Shown in pieces: positions 54,522 to 63,633 of a stretch of 64,000 nucleotides of DNA. Source of the stretch: Verrucomicrobiia bacterium (GTDB lineage Bacteria; Verrucomicrobiota; Verrucomicrobiia; Limisphaerales; JADLHS01); the NCBI GenBank assembly GCA_011525685.1, contig WYBW01000022.1, forward strand, positions 248,001-312,000. The letters are read 5' to 3'. Each line of letters begins with the position of its first letter. Position 1 is the first letter of the stretch. The notes under the pieces were generated by a model. It did no database searches. It was not told the DNA's origin and worked only from the letters and a program-made list of their open reading frames with translations. The translations under genes and the position numbers were made by a program.

Positions 54522-55013
54522 TTACGGCGGCGGTTTGGCCCGCTCGCGAAGTTCGTTCAGGTCCTTGACAACCGCGTTGTAGTTGGTGGCCAGTTCGTTG
54601 AACCTGATGATGGAGGCGTTGAGTTCATCCGCCAGTTCGCGGATCCGGTTGTTGGCCTGTTCCAGGTGCCTGTCGCGGACCTCCACGGCGGTCGCCCAGT
54701 TGGTCAGGGTCGCCCTCAACTGGTCGCGTTCCGCCGCCACTTGACGGAGCTGTCGTTCGGCGGTCAGGAGTTTTGCCTGGGTTTCGTTCAATCCCGCCTG
54801 GGTCGTGGTCAGGGAATCCTTGAACTCCAGGAGGTCCGCCTTGAGGCCGCGCGCGTCGCGTTCCTGTTCCACCAGCCTGCCTTCCAGATCCAGACGCGCC
54901 TTTTCCAACCGGTTGATCTCGAGGTTGAGTTGCCGGTCGTGCCGCCATTGCGCGACACAGAGCACGACCAGCGCGAGGACTCCGATCAGATTGACATAGT
55001 GCAACCGCTTCAT
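54522..55013 (-). CDS. Membrane-anchored coiled-coil protein of the Ton cluster
   Basis: 163 residues: one N-terminal membrane segment (~8-22), then one continuous coiled coil rich in Leu/Glu/Arg/Gln to the end. It would project into the periplasm. It is the last gene of the ExbB-ExbD group, and its start overlaps the ExbD stop. Coiled-coil partners of Ton/Tol-like motors (TolA-, PomB- or similar) occupy this position in other genomes, so it may link the motor to the envelope (inference). No family recognised. Confidence 0.65.
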   Translation of the reverse strand: MKRLHYVNLIGVLALVVLCVAQWRHDRQLNLEINRLEKARLDLEGRLVEQERDARGLKADLLEFKDSLTTTQAGLNETQAKLLTAERQLRQVAAERDQLRATLTNWATAVEVRDRHLEQANNRIRELADELNASIIRFNELATNYNAVVKDLNELRERAKPPP

Positions 55014-55450
55014 GGGGCGGAGATCGCAGACTCCGGCAGGGGCCGGATTTCAAACGCCACCTTCTGGATGCCGGTGGAGCGCACGGCGTCGAGCACCCGG
55101 ATGATGTCGCCGTGACGGGCGTCCGCGTCGCCACTGATGAAGACACGGACATTTTCGTTCGTGCGATGCCAGGCCGTCAGGCGCTGGGTCAGTTCGTTCA
55201 GGCCGACAAGCTGCTTGTCGAAGTAGGCTCGACCACTTTTGTCCACGGAGATGCTGACAAAATCGCCCTTGATTTCCAGGGTCGCGGTCACGGCGGTGGG
55301 GAGATTCACCTTGAGGCTCTTGAGGTTCACCATGCTCAGGCTCACCAGCATGAACGCCGCGAGGAGAAAGAACATGATGTCAATGAGCGGAATGATCTCG
55401 ATCCGCGCATCGCTCTCGGCCGGGAGTTTGGAACCAAGTTTAACCGGCAT
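55010..55450 (-). CDS. exbD: ExbD/TolR-family proton channel component
   Basis: 146 residues. One membrane helix (~21-44) holds the conserved proton-carrying Asp 24 (PLIDIMFFLL). The periplasmic part (~45-146) has the family fold. It works with ExbB at 55504 to energise TonB. The ATG at 55450 lies 53 bases downstream of the ExbB stop; the gene's stop overlaps the coiled-coil gene start. Confidence 0.92.
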   Translation of the reverse strand: MPVKLGSKLPAESDARIEIIPLIDIMFFLLAAFMLVSLSMVNLKSLKVNLPTAVTATLEIKGDFVSISVDKSGRAYFDKQLVGLNELTQRLTAWHRTNENVRVFISGDADARHGDIIRVLDAVRSTGIQKVAFEIRPLPESAISAP

Positions 55451-55503: not shown

Positions 55504-56214
55504 TCATCGGGGGGAGTCGTCCACCGCGCCCACCGCCTCGCCGCCCGGGCGGGCGGCCCGTCCGCGCGCAAAGGCCTCCACGTCGTGCCCGTGGTGGCGG
55601 CCCGATTCAACCAGCAACTCGACGTGATTGATGGTGCGCTCGAGCCGCGAGCGGAATTGCGCGAGCTTGCGATGGAAGAAATTGTAAGGCAACAGACACA
55701 GAATGGCGATGCCCAGTCCGCACGCCGTCGCAATCAATGCTTCGGCAATGCCGCCGCTGACCTTTACCGCCGCCAGCTCCTCGTGCCCGACGAAATGAAA
55801 GGAATCCATGATGCCGATAACCGTGCCCATGAGGCCCAGCAACGGCGCCATCGTGATGAAAGTGCCGAGCACCCACAGGCGTTTCTCAGCCCGCTCGATT
55901 TCCCGCATGGCCCGCAACTGCATGGCCCCCAGCAGCGAGGCGTGGGCGTGCAGCAGTCCCTCGCGCACGGTGATGAGGTACGGATCGTTCGTGCGTTCGC
56001 CCAGGCTGGCCGCGCGTGCGAAGTCGCCATGGCTGATGGCGGCAAATGCCTCGTTCAGCGCGGCGGGCTGGCAGCGGCGCTTGAGATGCCACCACCAGAG
56101 TGAACGTTCCACCAGGACGAAAAGCGCGGCGATGAGGCACACCAGCATCGGCCACATGAGCAAACCGCCCCGCAGAAAGAAATCAACGGCAAGATGAGCC
56201 AGCATGGGTTTCAT
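55504..56214 (-). CDS. exbB: ExbB/TolQ/MotA-family proton channel component
   Basis: 236 residues with three membrane segments (~10-37, ~105-130, ~150-175), the last two being the ExbB pore helices; LGLMGTVIGIMDSF and GGIAEALIATACGLGIAI are family signatures. It forms the pentamer around ExbD and supplies energy to TonB. The gene ends 53 bases before exbD and starts 19 bases after the TonB stop, in the usual order. A second ATG three codons later is possible. Confidence 0.93.
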   Translation of the reverse strand: MKPMLAHLAVDFFLRGGLLMWPMLVCLIAALFVLVERSLWWWHLKRRCQPAALNEAFAAISHGDFARAASLGERTNDPYLITVREGLLHAHASLLGAMQLRAMREIERAEKRLWVLGTFITMAPLLGLMGTVIGIMDSFHFVGHEELAAVKVSGGIAEALIATACGLGIAILCLLPYNFFHRKLAQFRSRLERTINHVELLVESGRHHGHDVEAFARGRAARPGGEAVGAVDDSPR

Positions 56215-56233: not shown

Positions 56234-56980
56234 TCACTTCGCGATCTGGAAACGGATGGCCACTTCGTAAAGCCGCGCCGGTCCGGCGGGAAAATGCCAG
56301 CGTTCGCGCACCACTTTCAAGGCCGCTTCATTCAACAGCGGCCACGGACACGATTCGACCGCCTCGGCCTGGAGCACACGTCCATCTTCACCCACGGACA
56401 GGCGGACGACCACCGTTCCTTCCTGGCGTTGACGTTCGGCCTGGCGCGGGTAATTGGGTTTGGGCTGGTTGCCTTCGCCCTCGCCCAGCGTGAGTGGTCG
56501 GACAGGCGGAGGCGCCGGCTGCGCGTTGCCGACGGGACGGCTGACGTACTCCGCCCGGCTGGCCTCAACGACCCGCGTCGGTCCGGCCACGGGCAGCGCA
56601 AAGGCGATGGCGGGACTTGGTTGTGCAACAGCAATGGGCAGGGTGATGGCGGGAGTCGCGAAGGTGTCCGGCGGCGGGGGCGGCGCCGAGGGATCCGGCG
56701 GCTGCGGTTCGGAATCCGGCGGCGGGCTTGGGGACAGGTCCACCTGCAACTGCTGCGCCAGCAACGGTTCATCCCGAACCTGCCGGGCGTGCGGTCGTTC
56801 ATAACTCAGGACGAACCCGAGCAAGCCGACGAGCAAACAAGAAACCCACAAAAGCAGTGTCAACGCAGGCAGGCTGGCCGAGTCCTCGGCATCCGGCCAG
56901 AGCACCACCCCGGCGCACGCCGCGCCGTCTGGCTCGGTCGTCTGAGGCGAGGTTTGATCACCCGGGTCCGGAATTCGCAT
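56234..56980 (-). CDS. tonB: TonB-family energy-transducing protein
   Basis: 248 residues from the ATG at 56980. Membrane anchor ~37-58, then a Pro-rich periplasmic linker (~70-155, SPSPPPDSEPQPP and similar) and the TonB C-terminal domain (~155-248) starting at NYPRQAERQRQEGTVVVRL. It transmits energy from ExbB/ExbD to an outer-membrane receptor, presumably the receptor encoded just upstream (57007-59586), which ends 27 bases before. The TTG at 56992 is a less likely start. Confidence 0.9.
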   Translation of the reverse strand: MRIPDPGDQTSPQTTEPDGAACAGVVLWPDAEDSASLPALTLLLWVSCLLVGLLGFVLSYERPHARQVRDEPLLAQQLQVDLSPSPPPDSEPQPPDPSAPPPPPDTFATPAITLPIAVAQPSPAIAFALPVAGPTRVVEASRAEYVSRPVGNAQPAPPPVRPLTLGEGEGNQPKPNYPRQAERQRQEGTVVVRLSVGEDGRVLQAEAVESCPWPLLNEAALKVVRERWHFPAGPARLYEVAIRFQIAK

Positions 56981-57006
56981 GGTTGTGGCCAAATGCTCAC
57001 AGACGA

Positions 57007-59586
57007 TTAGAACCGTGCCGTGATCGCAAAGCGAGCCTGAATCGGCTCGACCGGATGGAAGTGGATTTCCTCCCTGGCCGCCGCGGTGGGCGAGATGCGC
57101 GACTCGTAGTAGTAATCAATGTCATGATCCCGCCGGTCGAGGATGTTCAATACCTCGGCCGAAACCGTCCAAGTCTTGTTGATGCGCCAGCCAATCCGTC
57201 CGTTGAGCAGAATGGTCTCGTCGGAACGGACGCTGTCATCCTCGATGAGCGGGCGCGGTCCGAAGTAACGCAACCGCAGGCTGGCGAAAAATCCGCAGTC
57301 GTGCCGGTAGGTGATGCCCGCCGCAATCACGCTCTCAATCGAACCGGGAATATAGTCGCCTGCCGGATCATGGTCCCGGAAGCGGGCGTGCGAGAAGGAG
57401 AAGTCCGCGTCAAGGGTGAGGGATTTTGTGAGGTTGTAGAAGTTGGCCCACTCAACCCCGAACCGGCGGCTGGGCCGGCTGGCCTCGGTCGCCCCGGCGT
57501 CCCCTACGAAGATGAGTTCCGAATCAATGTCCAGCCACCAGAAGGACAGCGTGCTCTGCAACCCGTCCACCGCCAGCGTGCGCACGCCGATCTCCGCGCC
57601 GTAGGTCTGCACCAAGGGATCGGCTCGCGAGACCGAATCTCCAGTCACCGGATCAACCGTGGTGGTCGCGCCGCGGCCGTCGTTGCTGTGAAAACCAAGA
57701 CCGCCCTGCACATAAACTTCCGTTTTCGCCCAGGGACCAAAGATCAAGCTGAGTTTCGGACTGGCGATGGCATCGCTCCGGATGTCGGAATTCGCGGCGA
57801 GGGTGCTGTCCACGTCGAAATTGTAAAAATCGCCGCGCACGCCGGCCACGCTGCGGACTTTCTCGCCCCACTGCAACGTGTTCTTGTAATAGAGGCCGAA
57901 GCTGGTTTGCACGATGTCGTCTTCCCGCGTGGTCGCAGGGATAGTCCCGCCCGCCTTCGCGACGCGATTGCGGGCCTGCGTATTGAACAATCCGTTCTCG
58001 ATCCAGTCGTTGCGCATCTGCAAGCCGAAGGTGTTTGCCACTTCGCGCCCGAACCATTCGCCATAGAGTGTATGGTCCGCGACGAGTCCGATCGCCACCC
58101 GCTCGTCCACCTGCTCGAATTGATCCCCCAGATCGGGATCGGTCAGGAAGTAGGTGAAGTTCGAAAACAGGTCCATGTCGTAGTAGAAGCCATACGCCAT
58201 GAGCCGGGTGGAGGAGTGGTCGTCGGCGCGGTGCAATTCCGCCTGTAAGCTGTAGCGTTGTGATTCGCCGCCGGTGGTGCGGTCCAAGGAGTCGTAGAAC
58301 GAAATCAGACCCGTATCTATGGCGCTCTGCGCAACCTGGTCGCTGGAGTTCCATTCGCCGTGATAACCGCGCGCGGTGATGCTGAACCCGTTGGCGTCGT
58401 CGCCCTGGCTGTAAGTGACCTGACCGTTGAACTTCCAGTAGTTGTCCGGCTTTTTCCACGGACCATCATGATGAAGGATTTCTCCCGCGTAAAGCAGCCA
58501 GCCCTCGCCGACCTTGGGCGAGGAGGCGAAAACGCCGCGCCCGTAACCATACATGCCGGCCTCGGCAATGGCGATGCTCTCCGGCAGGACCTTGAACGTC
58601 TCCAGATGCGCCGCGCCCGCCGAGGAGAAGTCTCCGTTCTCGGCGTAATAGACCCCCTTCTGGTAGTTCACGCGCTGGACCAGTTCCGGGATGACAATGT
58701 TCATGTCCGTGTAACCCTGCCCATGACCGTGCGACGGAAGGTTGACAGGCATGCCGTCCAGGCTCGTGTAAAAATCCGTGCCGTGATCGAGATTGAAGCC
58801 GCGCAGGAAATACTGGTTGGCCTTCCCGCCACCGGCGTGCTGCGTGATGATGACTCCGGGAACGGTTTCGAGGATTTCGCCCGAGCGCAGAATGGGCCGC
58901 TCCGCAAGCTGCGCCGCGCCCACCGTGCCTTGGTTGGCGGACTCCGCCACGCCGATCAAACTGTCGCCACGGCCTTCCACAATGATCGGCGCGAGCCGCG
59001 TGGGAACTTCGGTCGCCGGCGCGTTCGTGCTGGTCTGGCCAAAAGCGTTGCCGCCGACGAAGCAACCAAAGCCCACCATCGCCACCCTCGTCACCAGCAC
59101 TCCGACACCGTGCAACAGCAACGTGGCCAGCACGAACCCAGCCATGAAGGAGGCGACACTGGTGGTAACCGGCACTTCGCTGCCGTGCGCCAGTCCGTGG
59201 AAGAAGGCGAAGAAAGCCACCAGGGCCAGGCTCACGGAAGGTTTCACTCTTGCCGGCTCAATCAGCAGCATCCCGAACACCGGCACCGACAGCATGAGGA
59301 TGAATTCCACTCCAGGCAGGCGCAGGCCGGAAGCGCCCAGCACCGCACCCAACGCCATCACACCGACGAACAGGAGCGGCACACGCCATAGAGCGCGGCC
59401 TCCTTTGCGCGCCGCCCACACGCCGACCGCCACCATCACCAACAAATGATCCCAGCCCTGGAGCGGGTGGTTGAACCCGGCGGATAGACTGTTCCCGCCG
59501 TGGCCCGCGGAGTGCGCCAGCGCCAGACCGGGAAGCAAAAACAGGAAACCAGCAGTTAAAACAAGCGGACTGAGAGCGGTTTTCAT
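57007..59586 (-). CDS. HupE/UreJ domain fused to a TonB-dependent receptor
   Basis: 859 residues from the ATG at 59586. Residues ~1-165 are a HupE/UreJ-type nickel/cobalt permease domain with signal-like N-terminus, the signature NHPLQGWDHLLVMVAVG (~39-55) and FFHGLAHGSEVP. Residues ~165-185 (VTRVAMVGFGCFVGGNAFGQ) look exactly like a Sec signal peptide. Residues ~195-320 form a receptor plug domain, and ~330-859 a beta barrel ending in ARF. Inner-membrane permease and outer-membrane receptor in one frame is topologically impossible without cleavage or separate starts. A GTG at residue 165 (59094-59092) has CGGAG five bases upstream. The TonB-ExbB-ExbD genes lie directly downstream. Confidence 0.9.
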   Translation of the reverse strand: MKTALSPLVLTAGFLFLLPGLALAHSAGHGGNSLSAGFNHPLQGWDHLLVMVAVGVWAARKGGRALWRVPLLFVGVMALGAVLGASGLRLPGVEFILMLSVPVFGMLLIEPARVKPSVSLALVAFFAFFHGLAHGSEVPVTTSVASFMAGFVLATLLLHGVGVLVTRVAMVGFGCFVGGNAFGQTSTNAPATEVPTRLAPIIVEGRGDSLIGVAESANQGTVGAAQLAERPILRSGEILETVPGVIITQHAGGGKANQYFLRGFNLDHGTDFYTSLDGMPVNLPSHGHGQGYTDMNIVIPELVQRVNYQKGVYYAENGDFSSAGAAHLETFKVLPESIAIAEAGMYGYGRGVFASSPKVGEGWLLYAGEILHHDGPWKKPDNYWKFNGQVTYSQGDDANGFSITARGYHGEWNSSDQVAQSAIDTGLISFYDSLDRTTGGESQRYSLQAELHRADDHSSTRLMAYGFYYDMDLFSNFTYFLTDPDLGDQFEQVDERVAIGLVADHTLYGEWFGREVANTFGLQMRNDWIENGLFNTQARNRVAKAGGTIPATTREDDIVQTSFGLYYKNTLQWGEKVRSVAGVRGDFYNFDVDSTLAANSDIRSDAIASPKLSLIFGPWAKTEVYVQGGLGFHSNDGRGATTTVDPVTGDSVSRADPLVQTYGAEIGVRTLAVDGLQSTLSFWWLDIDSELIFVGDAGATEASRPSRRFGVEWANFYNLTKSLTLDADFSFSHARFRDHDPAGDYIPGSIESVIAAGITYRHDCGFFASLRLRYFGPRPLIEDDSVRSDETILLNGRIGWRINKTWTVSAEVLNILDRRDHDIDYYYESRISPTAAAREEIHFHPVEPIQARFAITARF
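59092..59104 (-). promoter_or_regulatory. Internal Shine-Dalgarno and GTG start inside the HupE-receptor fusion
   Basis: Minus-strand CGGAG (59104-59100), a five-base spacer and GTG (59094-59092) in frame with the receptor. Initiation here would give an ordinary receptor precursor starting (M)TRVAMVGFGCF with its own signal peptide. Confidence 0.5.
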
Positions 59587-59661
59587 GGATGCTTGAGCGG
59601 GGAGTGCGCCGCCTCGAAGCCATCGAGCATCGCGCCGCCCAAGGCGGACCGTGCTCCTGCG

Positions 59662-59698
59662 ACACGCGGTAAGCGACCGCTGTAACCGCAAGGCGTGT
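59662..59698 (-). other. Possible hairpin in the leader of the HupE-receptor gene
   Basis: Complementary segments ACACGC/GCGTGT with an inner GGT/ACC and a five-base bulge could form a stem in the transcript ~75-110 bases before the start codon. No known riboswitch consensus (in particular no cobalamin-type box) is visible. Significance uncertain. Confidence 0.25.
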
Positions 59699-59819
59699 TG
59701 TGGTTCAGGCATGGCTGTTGCGGACGACTTGTTGCTTATAGGCCCGACTTCGCACGGGTGACAAGACGTTTTTCCCGATGAGGAGGTTTTCAGAAACAGA
59801 ATTTGAGTTCAAATCCGCA

Positions 59820-59853
59820 TTGACGCCCTGCCCTCGCGGCCTAGGCTGTTCGC
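59820..59853 (+). promoter_or_regulatory. Possible leaderless promoter before the HupE gene
   Basis: TTGACG (59820-59825), 16 bases, TAGGCT (59842-59847), ending six bases before the ATG at 59854, the same spacing as before parB. No Shine-Dalgarno follows. This is consistent with a transcript starting at the ATG (inference). Confidence 0.4.
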
Positions 59854-60525
59854 ATGTCTCCCCATTACAACCCCACGCCGCTTTACCGGCAATCCGTCGC
59901 GCTGACTGTCGGCGCCGCGCCCATCGCGGCCGGATGTTCACGCAGAGTTCGCCTTGGCGCTGTCTTGATTCTGATGGCACTGCTGCCAGCCACCGCGAGC
60001 GCTCACACGGAAACCGGCGCACTGGGCGGGTTTGTCAGTGGGTTCACGCACCCGTTGACCGGTCTGGATCACATGGTGGCCATGGTGGCCGTGGGTCTTT
60101 GGGGCGCGTTCCTCGGCGGACGCGCCATGTGGATGCTGCCCGTCGTGTTCCCGGTCGTGATGGCGTTCGGAGGCGCGCTGGGGGTCTTGGGCGTGCCCTT
60201 CCCGGCGGTGGAAACCGGCATCGCAGTTTCCGGAGTTGTGCTGGGCTTGATGGTGGCGTTTGCGGTCAAACCGCCGCTCTGGGTGGCAGCCCTCATCGTC
60301 GGTTTGTTCGGAATGTTTCATGGTCATGCGCACGGAACGGAACTGCCGGCGACCGCCAACGCGCTGGCCTACTCCGTGGGCTTCGTGGTGTCCACCGGTT
60401 TGCTTCACTTGAGCGGGATTGCGCTGGGATTGCTGGTGCGCTGGCCCTGGGGAAAGATTGTCGTGCGAGCGGGCGGGTTCGCCATCGCCGTGGTCGGACT
60501 GGGATTCCTGTTCAACTTCCTGTGA
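59854..60525 (+). CDS. hupE: HupE/UreJ-family permease
   Basis: 223 residues. A cleavable or uncleaved leader (~1-50) ends at the processed site SAHTETG, which exposes a His near the mature N-terminus as in HupE/UreJ. Signature THPLTGLDHMVAMVAVG (~66-82) has the His-Asp-His metal-binding pattern, followed by FHGHAHGTELP (~155-165) with three His. About six membrane segments. These proteins take up nickel or cobalt for hydrogenase, urease or cobalamin enzymes. It overlaps the next gene (GTGA), and is divergent from the HupE-receptor fusion. Confidence 0.9.
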   Translation: MSPHYNPTPLYRQSVALTVGAAPIAAGCSRRVRLGAVLILMALLPATASAHTETGALGGFVSGFTHPLTGLDHMVAMVAVGLWGAFLGGRAMWMLPVVFPVVMAFGGALGVLGVPFPAVETGIAVSGVVLGLMVAFAVKPPLWVAALIVGLFGMFHGHAHGTELPATANALAYSVGFVVSTGLLHLSGIALGLLVRWPWGKIVVRAGGFAIAVVGLGFLFNFL

Positions 60526-61139
60526 GCCAAATCAGCGTCAGGTTCGGCGCCAGCCGGTGGCTTCCGCTGGCTATCCTGCTCTTCGCGTTCCCGGCCACAG
60601 CGCAGGCGCACACGCCCATCGAGGGCATCGGCGATTTTCTCGCCGGACTGATTCATCCGCTCACGACGCCTTCGCACATTCTGCTGTTGTTGGCCTTGGG
60701 TCTCCTTTTGGGTCAACGGTCGCCGCTGAGGTTGAAAATGCCGATGCTAGTCTTTGTTTCTGCTTCGGCCGTGGCGCTCACGCTGACGACGGCTGGTTGG
60801 TTTACGAAAGTCCATCCGGCCATCCTGCTTGGTCTTGCCTTGTGCGCGGCGACGTTTGTGGCGTTGGAACGGCCGCTGCCGCCGCTCGCGCTGCACACTC
60901 TGCTGGCGCTGGCGGCGCTGGCACTGGGACTGGACTCGGCAGTCGAATCCGGTTCGCGCGCCGCGGTGTTCAAAACGCTGGCCGGCACGTGGATCAGCCT
61001 CGCCGTGTTGCTGGCCGACGTGGCGATCTATGTTTCTTTCTGCGCCCGGAAGAACTGGTTGAAGGTCGGGGTGCGGGTGCTCGGGTCGTGGATCATCGCG
61101 GTCGCGTTGTTGGTGCTGGCATTTTCGCTCAGAAGTTGA
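60522..61139 (+). CDS. HupE-like permease, divergent copy
   Basis: 205 residues starting with GTG at 60522, overlapping the upstream stop by GTGA, so coupled. Leader to ~residue 31 with processing near AQAHTPIEG again exposes a His. The first signature is IHPLTTPSHILLLLALG: the Asp of GLDH is lost (PSH), and there is no FHGHAHGTE-type second motif, so metal handling is probably altered. Around six membrane segments. It may be a partner or regulator subunit of the upstream HupE (inference). Confidence 0.8.
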   Translation: MSQISVRFGASRWLPLAILLFAFPATAQAHTPIEGIGDFLAGLIHPLTTPSHILLLLALGLLLGQRSPLRLKMPMLVFVSASAVALTLTTAGWFTKVHPAILLGLALCAATFVALERPLPPLALHTLLALAALALGLDSAVESGSRAAVFKTLAGTWISLAVLLADVAIYVSFCARKNWLKVGVRVLGSWIIAVALLVLAFSLRS

Positions 61140-61226
61140 TCGCGGACCTTCCTATCTTGGCCGCAGCAGGTCGGCGGGGCGCGTAAGAACTGGCTTTCAA
61201 ATGGAGTGCGGTTACTCTCCGGAATC

Positions 61227-62174
61227 ATGAACTTGTCCTTCCGAAATCGTGGATTGAATCCGCTGGGTTGGGCATTGGCTGTCGCGCTGGGTCTCGCCGC
61301 AGGAAAAGCTGCGGATGTTCCGCTCAAGACATCCACCAACACCGTCGCCAAACCCGTGGAACTCGCCGGTGTCCACAACGCCTTTCAAGTGACGGAGCGA
61401 ATTTATTCCGGCTCACAGCCCGAAGACGAAGCGGCGTTTGCCGCGTTGGCGAAGCTCGGGGTGAAGACCATCGTGAGTGTTGACGGCGGCAAGCCCGACG
61501 TGGAGACCGCGCGCAAGCACGGCATCCGCTACATTCACCTCCCCATCGGATACGATGGTGTGCCCACCAATCGCGTCATCGAATTGGCCAAGGCGGCTTT
61601 GACCCAGCCCGGGCCATTCTTTGTTCATTGTCACCATGGTCTTCACCGCGGGCCGGCGGCTGTGGCAATCATCTGCCAGGCCCTCGAAGGCTGGAGTGCC
61701 CGGAAAGCGGAAGCTTGGATGCGGGAAGCCGGCACTTCCCCCGACTATCCCGGACTTTTCCGATCAGCGAGGGAGTTCAAGCAGCCCACGCAGGAGCAAC
61801 TGGCCGCGACCGGACCGCTGCCAGAGTTCACCCAGCCCTCTTCGCTGGTGGAGGCGATGGTGACGATTGACGAGCATTTCTCGCGGCTCAAGCTTTCGCA
61901 GCAAGCCGGCTGGAAATCCCCGCCCGGTCACGCGGACATTTCGCCGCCGCACGAGGCCACGATGCTTTGGGAACAACTCCGGGAAATGGCCCGCCTGCCG
62001 GACACCGCTCAACGGCCGGAGGATTATCGCGCCAAACTCGCCGACTCCGAACAGACGGCGGACGCCTTGCGCCGGCTGCTGCGCGAATCGGCCGACCCTG
62101 CACTGCTGGATGCCACCTTCAAACGCGCCGCTCAATCCTGCAGCGCCTGTCACAGATCCTATCGCAATCAGTAA
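61227..62174 (+). CDS. Exported protein-tyrosine-phosphatase-like domain fused to a cytochrome c domain
   Basis: 315 residues. A signal peptide (~1-29) leads to a dual-specificity/tyrosine phosphatase-like domain (~45-185): general-acid candidate Asp 110 (GYDGVP) and the CX5R loop HCHHGLHRG with Cys 135 and Arg 141. The C-terminal ~110 residues are helical and end in a heme-binding CSACH (Cys 305, Cys 308, His 309), as in cytochrome c'/c556-type domains. The frame is continuous with no sign of error. A periplasmic phosphatase-like domain linked to heme is unusual; redox control of the phosphatase Cys or a redox sensor are possible (inference). Confidence 0.85.
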   Translation: MNLSFRNRGLNPLGWALAVALGLAAGKAADVPLKTSTNTVAKPVELAGVHNAFQVTERIYSGSQPEDEAAFAALAKLGVKTIVSVDGGKPDVETARKHGIRYIHLPIGYDGVPTNRVIELAKAALTQPGPFFVHCHHGLHRGPAAVAIICQALEGWSARKAEAWMREAGTSPDYPGLFRSAREFKQPTQEQLAATGPLPEFTQPSSLVEAMVTIDEHFSRLKLSQQAGWKSPPGHADISPPHEATMLWEQLREMARLPDTAQRPEDYRAKLADSEQTADALRRLLRESADPALLDATFKRAAQSCSACHRSYRNQ

Positions 62175-62302
62175 CCGGACGACCACGCCAGCGGGTCGCG
62201 GCAGCTCGATCCGCTGACGCGCCCGGGTATGCACACCGGGCGCACATAGCCGGTGGGCAAGTTCCAGCTTTTCACAAGCCGGTTTTGACTTACCTTGCCA
62301 CC

Positions 62303-63589
62303 ATGACCTTGACGGAACAAATGACGCGCCTCGCGAAGCAGGCCAAAACCGCCTCGCGCGAACTCGCCAAGTTGACGACGGCCGAAAAGAACTCCTGTCT
62401 TCTTGCGATGGCCGAAGCTCTGGAAAGGCAGGCCGATGCGCTCAAGCAAGCCAACGCGCTGGACATGGAGGTCGGCGCGAAGATGGGTCTCTCCGCCGCG
62501 ATGCTCGACCGGCTCAAGCTGGACGACAAACGAATCGCGGCGATGTCGAAGGGCTTGCGCGAAGTCGCGGCGTTGCCCGATCCGGTCGGGCGCATTCTCG
62601 ATGAGCGGACGCGCCCCAACGGATTGAAGCTCCAGAAAATGTCCACCCCCATCGGCGTGGTGGTGATCATTTATGAATCGCGCCCGAATGTGACGGCCGA
62701 CGCGGCCAGCCTTTGTTTCAAGTCGGGCAACGCGACGATTCTTCGTGGCGGCAAGGAGGCGCTGAATTCAAATCAGATCATCGCGAAGACCATGATCGAA
62801 GCAGGCAAGCAGACGCTCGCGAGTTTTCCCGAACACGGAATTCAGGTCGTGCCCACGCCCGAGCGGGAGGCGATTCCGGCGTTGCTCTCGCTCACCCAGT
62901 ACGTGGACCTGTGCATGCCCCGCGGCGGCGAGGGGTTGATCCGCGCCGTGGCGGAGTGCAGCAAAGTGCCGGTGATCAAACATTACAAAGGGGTTTGCCA
63001 CGTGTTCGTGGATGCGGACGCAGACTTGAAGATGGCGGAGGAAATCGCCTTCAACGCCAAATGTCAGCGACCGGCGGTGTGCAACGCCATGGAAACGCTG
63101 CTCGTGGATCGCAAAGTCGCCAGGGACTTCCTGCCGGTCATCGGCCAAAGGCTGGGAGAAAAGCGGGTTCAACTGCGCGTGGATGCCGAGGCGGAAGCCA
63201 TTTTGAAATCCGGAATCCGAAATCCGAGGTCCGAGATCAAGCACGCCACGGAGCAGGACTGGTTCACCGAATACAACGATTACATATTGAACATCCGCGT
63301 CGTGGATGGCGTGAAGGCGGCCATTGACCACATCAACTACTACGGCTCGGCCCATTCGGATGCCATCGTGACGCGGAACGAAGCGCGGGCGAGGCAATTC
63401 CTGGCCGAGGTGGATTCGGCCACGGTTTATTGGAACGCTTCGACTCGTTTCACTGACGGTGGCGAGTTCGGCATGGGCGCGGAGATTGGCATCAGCACCG
63501 ACAAAATCGGCGCACGCGGGCCGATGGGGCTGGAGGAATTGACCAGCTACAAGTGGGTGGGCATTGGGAACGGGCAGGTGCGGACTTGA
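62303..63589 (+). CDS. proA: Gamma-glutamyl phosphate reductase (ProA)
   Basis: 428 residues. ALDH-superfamily enzyme: YESRPNVTADAASLCFKSGN (~124-143) and the catalytic Cys at 260 in CQRPAVCNAMETLLV. C-terminal TVYWNASTRFTDGGEFGMGAEIGIS is typical for ProA. It reduces glutamyl phosphate to the semialdehyde in proline synthesis with NADPH. Residues ~302-313 (KSGIRNPRSEIK) are an extra loop produced by a short DNA repeat, which appears to be tolerated. A TACCTT six bases before the ATG fits the leaderless promoter pattern. The end overlaps the next gene region. Confidence 0.95.
   Translation: MTLTEQMTRLAKQAKTASRELAKLTTAEKNSCLLAMAEALERQADALKQANALDMEVGAKMGLSAAMLDRLKLDDKRIAAMSKGLREVAALPDPVGRILDERTRPNGLKLQKMSTPIGVVVIIYESRPNVTADAASLCFKSGNATILRGGKEALNSNQIIAKTMIEAGKQTLASFPEHGIQVVPTPEREAIPALLSLTQYVDLCMPRGGEGLIRAVAECSKVPVIKHYKGVCHVFVDADADLKMAEEIAFNAKCQRPAVCNAMETLLVDRKVARDFLPVIGQRLGEKRVQLRVDAEAEAILKSGIRNPRSEIKHATEQDWFTEYNDYILNIRVVDGVKAAIDHINYYGSAHSDAIVTRNEARARQFLAEVDSATVYWNASTRFTDGGEFGMGAEIGISTDKIGARGPMGLEELTSYKWVGIGNGQVRT
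63205..63239 (+). repeat. Short tandem repeat (AATCCG-type) inserted in frame in proA
   Basis: About five imperfect units of the type (G/A)AATCCG run in a row (GAAATCCG, GAATCCG, AAATCCG, AGGTCCG, AGATC). They encode ~KSGIRNPRSEIK in ProA. Such AATCCG-type runs are dispersed in some bacterial genomes. The insertion is a multiple of three and keeps the frame. Confidence 0.5.
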
Positions 63590-63633
63590 TGGCCGCGCTT
63601 GTCAGCCGAATGTCATTCAGCCAGATTGCGACC

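Follow-up and report, generated by a model that had tools for sequence, protein, structure and literature searches.

At one locus of a Verrucomicrobiia genome, a HupE-type permease and a TonB-dependent receptor lie in the same reading frame, which raises the question of how one gene could serve two different membranes. An earlier note on this DNA, a stretch of 64,000 nucleotides that we call the window, had proposed that the last membrane segment of HupE doubles as the signal peptide of the receptor, and had offered two routes to the receptor: cleavage of a polyprotein by signal peptidase, or an internal start at GTG 59094. Here, we weigh these routes, and the alternatives to them, through comparison of the locus with its relatives.

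One frame for a permease and a receptor

The frame is uninterrupted on the minus strand, giving 859 aa from ATG 59586 and 933 aa from stop to stop. Its Pfam matches all exceed the curated cut-offs, with HupE_UreJ (PF04955) at residues 15-168 (E 1.2e-46; 158.9 bits vs a cut-off of 23) and a complete receptor half comprising plug (PF07715, residues 221-325) and barrel (PF00593, residues 389-815). The single frame at 57007-59586 that the earlier note described is thus borne out, as are, by Pfam, the tonB, exbB and exbD genes that it placed downstream and the divergent hupE genes, of which there are two, starting at 59854 and 60597. The genes and domains are as follows, a slash marking a cleavage site.

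57007..59586, minus strand: fused HupE::TonB-dependent receptor gene, ATG 59586 to stop 57007, 859 aa
59515..59586, minus strand: HupE N-terminal signal peptide, residues 1-24, ALA/HSAGH, called from sequence and seen in all five fusions described below and in free HupEs
59101..59514, minus strand: HupE core, TM1-TM5, residues 25-162, with HPLQGWDH and HGLAHG motifs (PF04955; invariant residues kept)
57010..59037, minus strand: mature TonB-dependent receptor, residues 184-859, with C-terminal Phe (PF07715, PF00593)
56234..56992, minus strand: tonB (PF03544, E 3.5e-17)
55504..56214, minus strand: exbB (PF01618, E 2e-26)
55010..55450, minus strand: exbD (PF02472, E 4.5e-27)
59854..60525, plus strand: free divergent hupE, last helix complete (PF04955 matched at 2-178 of 179)
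60597..61139, plus strand: second divergent HupE-like gene (PF04955, E 3.4e-13)

Two further genes nearby deserve mention. A 163-aa coiled-coil, membrane-anchored protein (54522-55013, minus strand) overlaps the end of exbD and is perhaps encoded in the same operon, and a DSP-type phosphatase domain is joined to a cytochrome c' domain in one protein at 61206-62174 (plus strand); similar-looking phosphatase/cytochrome c' genes stand directly upstream of unfused receptor relatives at two other loci (L010 and L101). Control of the fused gene by a riboswitch was considered and rejected, as Rfam gave no match in the intergenic stretch 59587-59853 or in the rest of the window.

Genomes of the order, 320 in all, were searched twice, with the fused protein as query and then for the HupE family. 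The receptor family was found in 41 of them at E<=1e-100, and HupE and receptor share one frame in five, each belonging to a different family of the order. The fusion that the earlier note suggested seeking in related genomes is therefore present in four genomes of four other families (G029/L005, G072/L019, G127/L023 and G125/L024), whose fused proteins are 58-69% identical to that of the window. Across the fusions the open frames span 914-943 aa, and the last residue is Phe in all five. Samples of the wider class, the phylum, the Gammaproteobacteria and named genomes yielded receptors or HupEs only and no further fusion. A 984-aa HupE frame in the gammaproteobacterial genome G1097 was considered as a second fusion and rejected, being a free HupE behind a long spurious upstream open frame. 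Among plasmids, no record covered 80% of a 260-aa N-terminal query, the best matches ending within HupE.

The seam between the two halves

Permeases of the HupE/UreJ family carry nickel or cobalt, have six helices and are synthesised with a precursor peptide (PMC4284471, PMC7689651). The N-terminal half of the fusion resembles them in its signal peptide, its HPxxGxDH and HGxAHG motifs and five of the six transmembrane helices, but differs at the sixth, where a receptor signal peptide appears to have taken its place; the other HupEs that we found are free proteins of ~200 aa with six helices. Three features, all on the minus strand, lie at or next to this seam.

59038..59088, minus strand: seam R167-VAMVGFGCFVGG-NAFG/Q, with invariant Arg167, an apolar stretch and the c-region of the receptor signal peptide, present in all five fusions
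59035..59040, minus strand: predicted signal peptidase I cut AFG/Q, after residue 183, between 59038 and 59037, called from the site pattern
59092..59094, minus strand: internal GTG (V165), the receptor start proposed earlier, with GGAG 5 nt upstream; a start codon in no other fusion

The Pfam HupE model has 179 positions. Free HupEs of the order, with few exceptions, match it up to about position 176-179, whereas in each of the five fusions the alignment to it stops at 157-165 (156-157 in the window protein), and HupE's own last helix is therefore gone. Only TM1-TM5 of the window protein are homologous to the six helices of the HupE/UreJ family, the seam being signal-peptide-like. In each of the five fusions the seam consists of an invariant Arg, an apolar run of 11-16 residues and an AxA-type site with Gln or Ala at +1, so that the features of a receptor signal peptide (n-region Arg, apolar stretch and cleavage site) lie internally rather than at the N-terminus. 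The aligned sites read AFG/Q in the window and AAA/Q, ARA/A, AIA/Q and AVA/Q in the other four.

The manner in which this segment has diverged points the same way. Mean pairwise identity among the fusions is 34% in the seam, close to the 30% of the N-terminal signal peptide, and 55% in the HupE core; for comparison, free HupEs share 41% identity over their sixth helix. Gap columns number about 0.4 per pair in the seam vs 4.6 in the linker just after it. Given this low identity, like that of the N-terminal signal peptide, together with the near absence of insertions and deletions, the seam seems to evolve as a signal peptide of fixed length. Receptor signal peptides that are recognisably alike, with a linker of the same sort after them, are present in unfused relatives, an example being FALACSICQSAQAQ in L020. 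Judged from these alignments, HupE has lost its own last helix and the receptor signal peptide stands in its place. The earlier proposal of a double-duty HupE segment therefore holds in that a signal-peptide-like helix lies at the seam, but this helix is not HupE's own, and the hydrophobic stretch assigned to residues ~165-184 begins slightly later, at R167 (59088-59037).

The AlphaFold model of the fused N-terminus is consistent with a true sixth helix having been lost. TM5 and the seam are modelled as a single 34-residue helix (residues 144-177) with no hairpin, confidence dropping after residue 170, whereas the free HupE of L120, used as a control, gives a clean TM5-TM6 hairpin. The same model offers no support for a signal peptide that packs as helix six after cleavage, and a fold search of the PDB with the N-terminal model returned no significant match.

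In the permease half, the fusions retain the residues that are invariant in 38 HupEs, those of HPxxGxDH and HGxAHG among them (HPLQGWDH at residues 40-47 in the window), so this half is likely to be under selection. TM1-TM5 have basic residues beside their cytoplasmic ends, and the charge distribution fits an N-out/C-out arrangement. With an N-out topology, the seam helix is predicted to run from cytoplasm to periplasm, which is the direction that a signal peptide needs.

A probable single chain for two membranes and its likely cargo

We consider that the best explanation of these observations, and a probable one, is a single polyprotein which is cut by signal peptidase I into a permease and a receptor. 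The N-terminal part would be a nickel/cobalt permease of the HupE type that loses its own signal peptide by cleavage and retains five transmembrane helices, the fifth ending on the cytoplasmic side at the Arg. The helix that follows, the receptor signal peptide in place of HupE's sixth helix, would span the membrane from cytoplasm to periplasm and take the receptor through Sec, whereupon signal peptidase I would cut after AFG (AxA in the relatives). The permease would remain in the inner membrane, possibly retaining the signal peptide as a sixth helix, and the receptor would pass to the outer membrane via BAM. Permease, receptor and TonB-ExbB-ExbD would then together import nickel (or cobalt) across both membranes, with the synthesis of permease and receptor fixed at 1:1.

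Of the two routes offered by the earlier note, it is this one that the sequences favour: the fusion is shared by five families with neither a stop nor a conserved start at the seam, all five seams carry a signal-peptidase-like site, the metal-motif residues of HupE are kept, and the predicted topology places the C-terminus of the seam in the periplasm. Three details count against it, namely the Gly at -1 of the window's cleavage site, which is weaker than AxA, the continuous TM5-seam helix that AlphaFold draws in place of a hairpin, and the shortness of the turn between TM5 and the seam. The fuller version of this explanation, in which one chain supplies both membrane steps and the receptor signal peptide stays on as the permease's sixth transmembrane helix after cleavage, we put forward tentatively, with the balance tipped somewhat against it.

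Bacterial polyproteins cut by signal peptidase are, to our knowledge, rare. In Bradyrhizobium, the cytochrome b/c1 precursor FbcH is one chain that yields two proteins when its internal signal peptide is cut by signal peptidase. By analogy this is the closest precedent known to us, and the principle of polyprotein cleavage is already known from it. In both cases a polytopic inner-membrane protein heads the chain and an exported protein follows in the same gene, the two being separated by an internal signal peptide, whose cleavage in the present case is predicted from sequence. The FbcH products join one inner-membrane complex, whereas the two halves here are predicted to go to different membranes, and here the last helix of one half appears to be replaced by the signal peptide. 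The parts of the literature consulted on HupE and TonB-dependent receptors contain no HupE-receptor fusion; equally, we found no account of a signal-peptidase-cut polyprotein with products in two membranes of one uptake route, or of a transporter helix replaced by a signal peptide. If confirmed, the arrangement would fix the synthesis of permease and receptor one to one, would be an example of a signal peptide replacing a transporter helix and would offer a compact system for testing the tolerance of signal peptidase and BAM.

Nickel is our best guess for the cargo, with cobalt next, and the context supports the nickel/cobalt-type uptake suggested previously. In Candidatus Scalindua (L043, 4170-10206), a NikR gene (PF08753, E 4e-32) is followed by a permease-like membrane protein, a receptor and then exbB, exbD and tonB; this cluster is in itself a candidate complete nickel uptake regulon. 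The L043 receptor is 53% identical to the window gene and likewise has TonB-ExbB-ExbD genes beside it but, unlike the fusion, it has its own start and signal peptide, and its permease-like neighbour is a separate gene from a different family. Nickel is favoured on account of this NikR-linked operon and of the NiFe hydrogenases of the host, whose genome encodes three large subunits with both Cys pairs present. The same genome contains neither NikR nor urease, which counts against a firm assignment of the metal.

A cleaved polyprotein with a different cargo (copper, zinc or a cobalamin-like chelate) is a rival that we think unlikely. In its favour, the solved receptors closest by profile are the YncD/PQQ transporter and BtuB, the small His-rich proteins encoded ahead of unfused receptors are reminiscent of the CutF-like group, which has copper-linked members (PMC9973294), and NikR and urease are absent from the genome. 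Against this, the His-rich-only group of CutF-like proteins is tied to HupE/UreJ (PMC9973294), and HupE/UreJ permeases transport Ni or Co (PMC7689651, PMC4284471); the NikR gene within the L043 receptor cluster and the hydrogenases of the host also weigh towards nickel.

These small His-rich secreted or membrane proteins precede many unfused receptors (L006, L020, L021, L022, L026, L039, L008, L031 and L032) and, in the three tested, had no convincing Pfam match; they resemble the His-rich CutF-like proteins described as neighbours of HupE/UreJ (PMC9973294). At the locus of another unfused receptor, an Acido-Lenti-1 RNA match above the gathering score lies at L025:1358-1403 (plus strand).

Other routes to the receptor and the history of the fusion

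The second route, overlapping genes in one frame, would have a read-through product accompanied by most of the receptor made from an internal start, and we judge it improbable. The proposed GTG 59094 does exist and is preceded at 5 nt by GGAG, as ATG 59079 is at 6 nt by GAGG; moreover, the fused gene's own ATG has a Shine-Dalgarno (SD) match of only 3 nt, so starts here may not depend on such a site. However, GTG 59094 aligns with GCC, ACC, GCG and ACG in the other four fusions, and the five seams share no conserved ATG, GTG or TTG, on which grounds a conserved internal start is rejected. Upstream, L019 offers only TTG candidates, whose SD match is at most 3 nt; its other candidates lie downstream of the conserved Arg. 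As there is no stop between the halves, a ribosome that has translated HupE cannot avoid entering the receptor, and the polyprotein would be made in any event.

That the fusion stays uncleaved, its HupE half acting as a mere elaborate membrane anchor or targeting leader, seems to us very improbable. The window's seam site is AFG rather than AxA, as such a reading would allow, but the four relatives have AxA-type sites, every metal-motif invariant of HupE is kept, and a receptor made up of plug and barrel and ending in Phe has to reach the outer membrane.

The fusion itself is real and not an assembly error, since four other families each have a genome, assembled independently, with the same single frame; a missing stop, the source of doubt named in the earlier note, is thus not borne out. 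A lost stop joining two neighbouring genes through sequencing, assembly or gene decay is scarcely credible, for although the fusion genomes are drafts and most receptor relatives are unfused, the same fusion occurs in five families at 58-69% identity with seams that align, and unfused receptors have no separate hupE directly upstream.

On whether relatives have two separate genes, which the earlier note had held would speak against the fusion, the picture is mixed. About 36 of the 41 receptor-bearing genomes have the receptor alone with its own signal peptide, and none has a separate HupE directly upstream; where a HupE does precede a member of this receptor family, the two always share a frame with no stop between them. 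The fused HupEs form one clade (support 99/97) and so have a single origin, their sister being a free HupE of G125, whereas a single clade of fused receptors is rejected (AU p 6e-8), two of them being sisters of unfused receptors with full support. The simplest reading of these trees would be a single fusion event, after which the HupE half was lost repeatedly, with exchange of that half a possible alternative. Traces of HupE were sought in front of the unfused receptors belonging to the same clade, and none went beyond chance. In a genome of the same genus (G001, L137), the divergent hupE pair and proA are kept and the receptor-tonB-exbB-exbD cluster is absent from that locus (cf. window 59984-63606), so the receptor cluster is variable within the genus.
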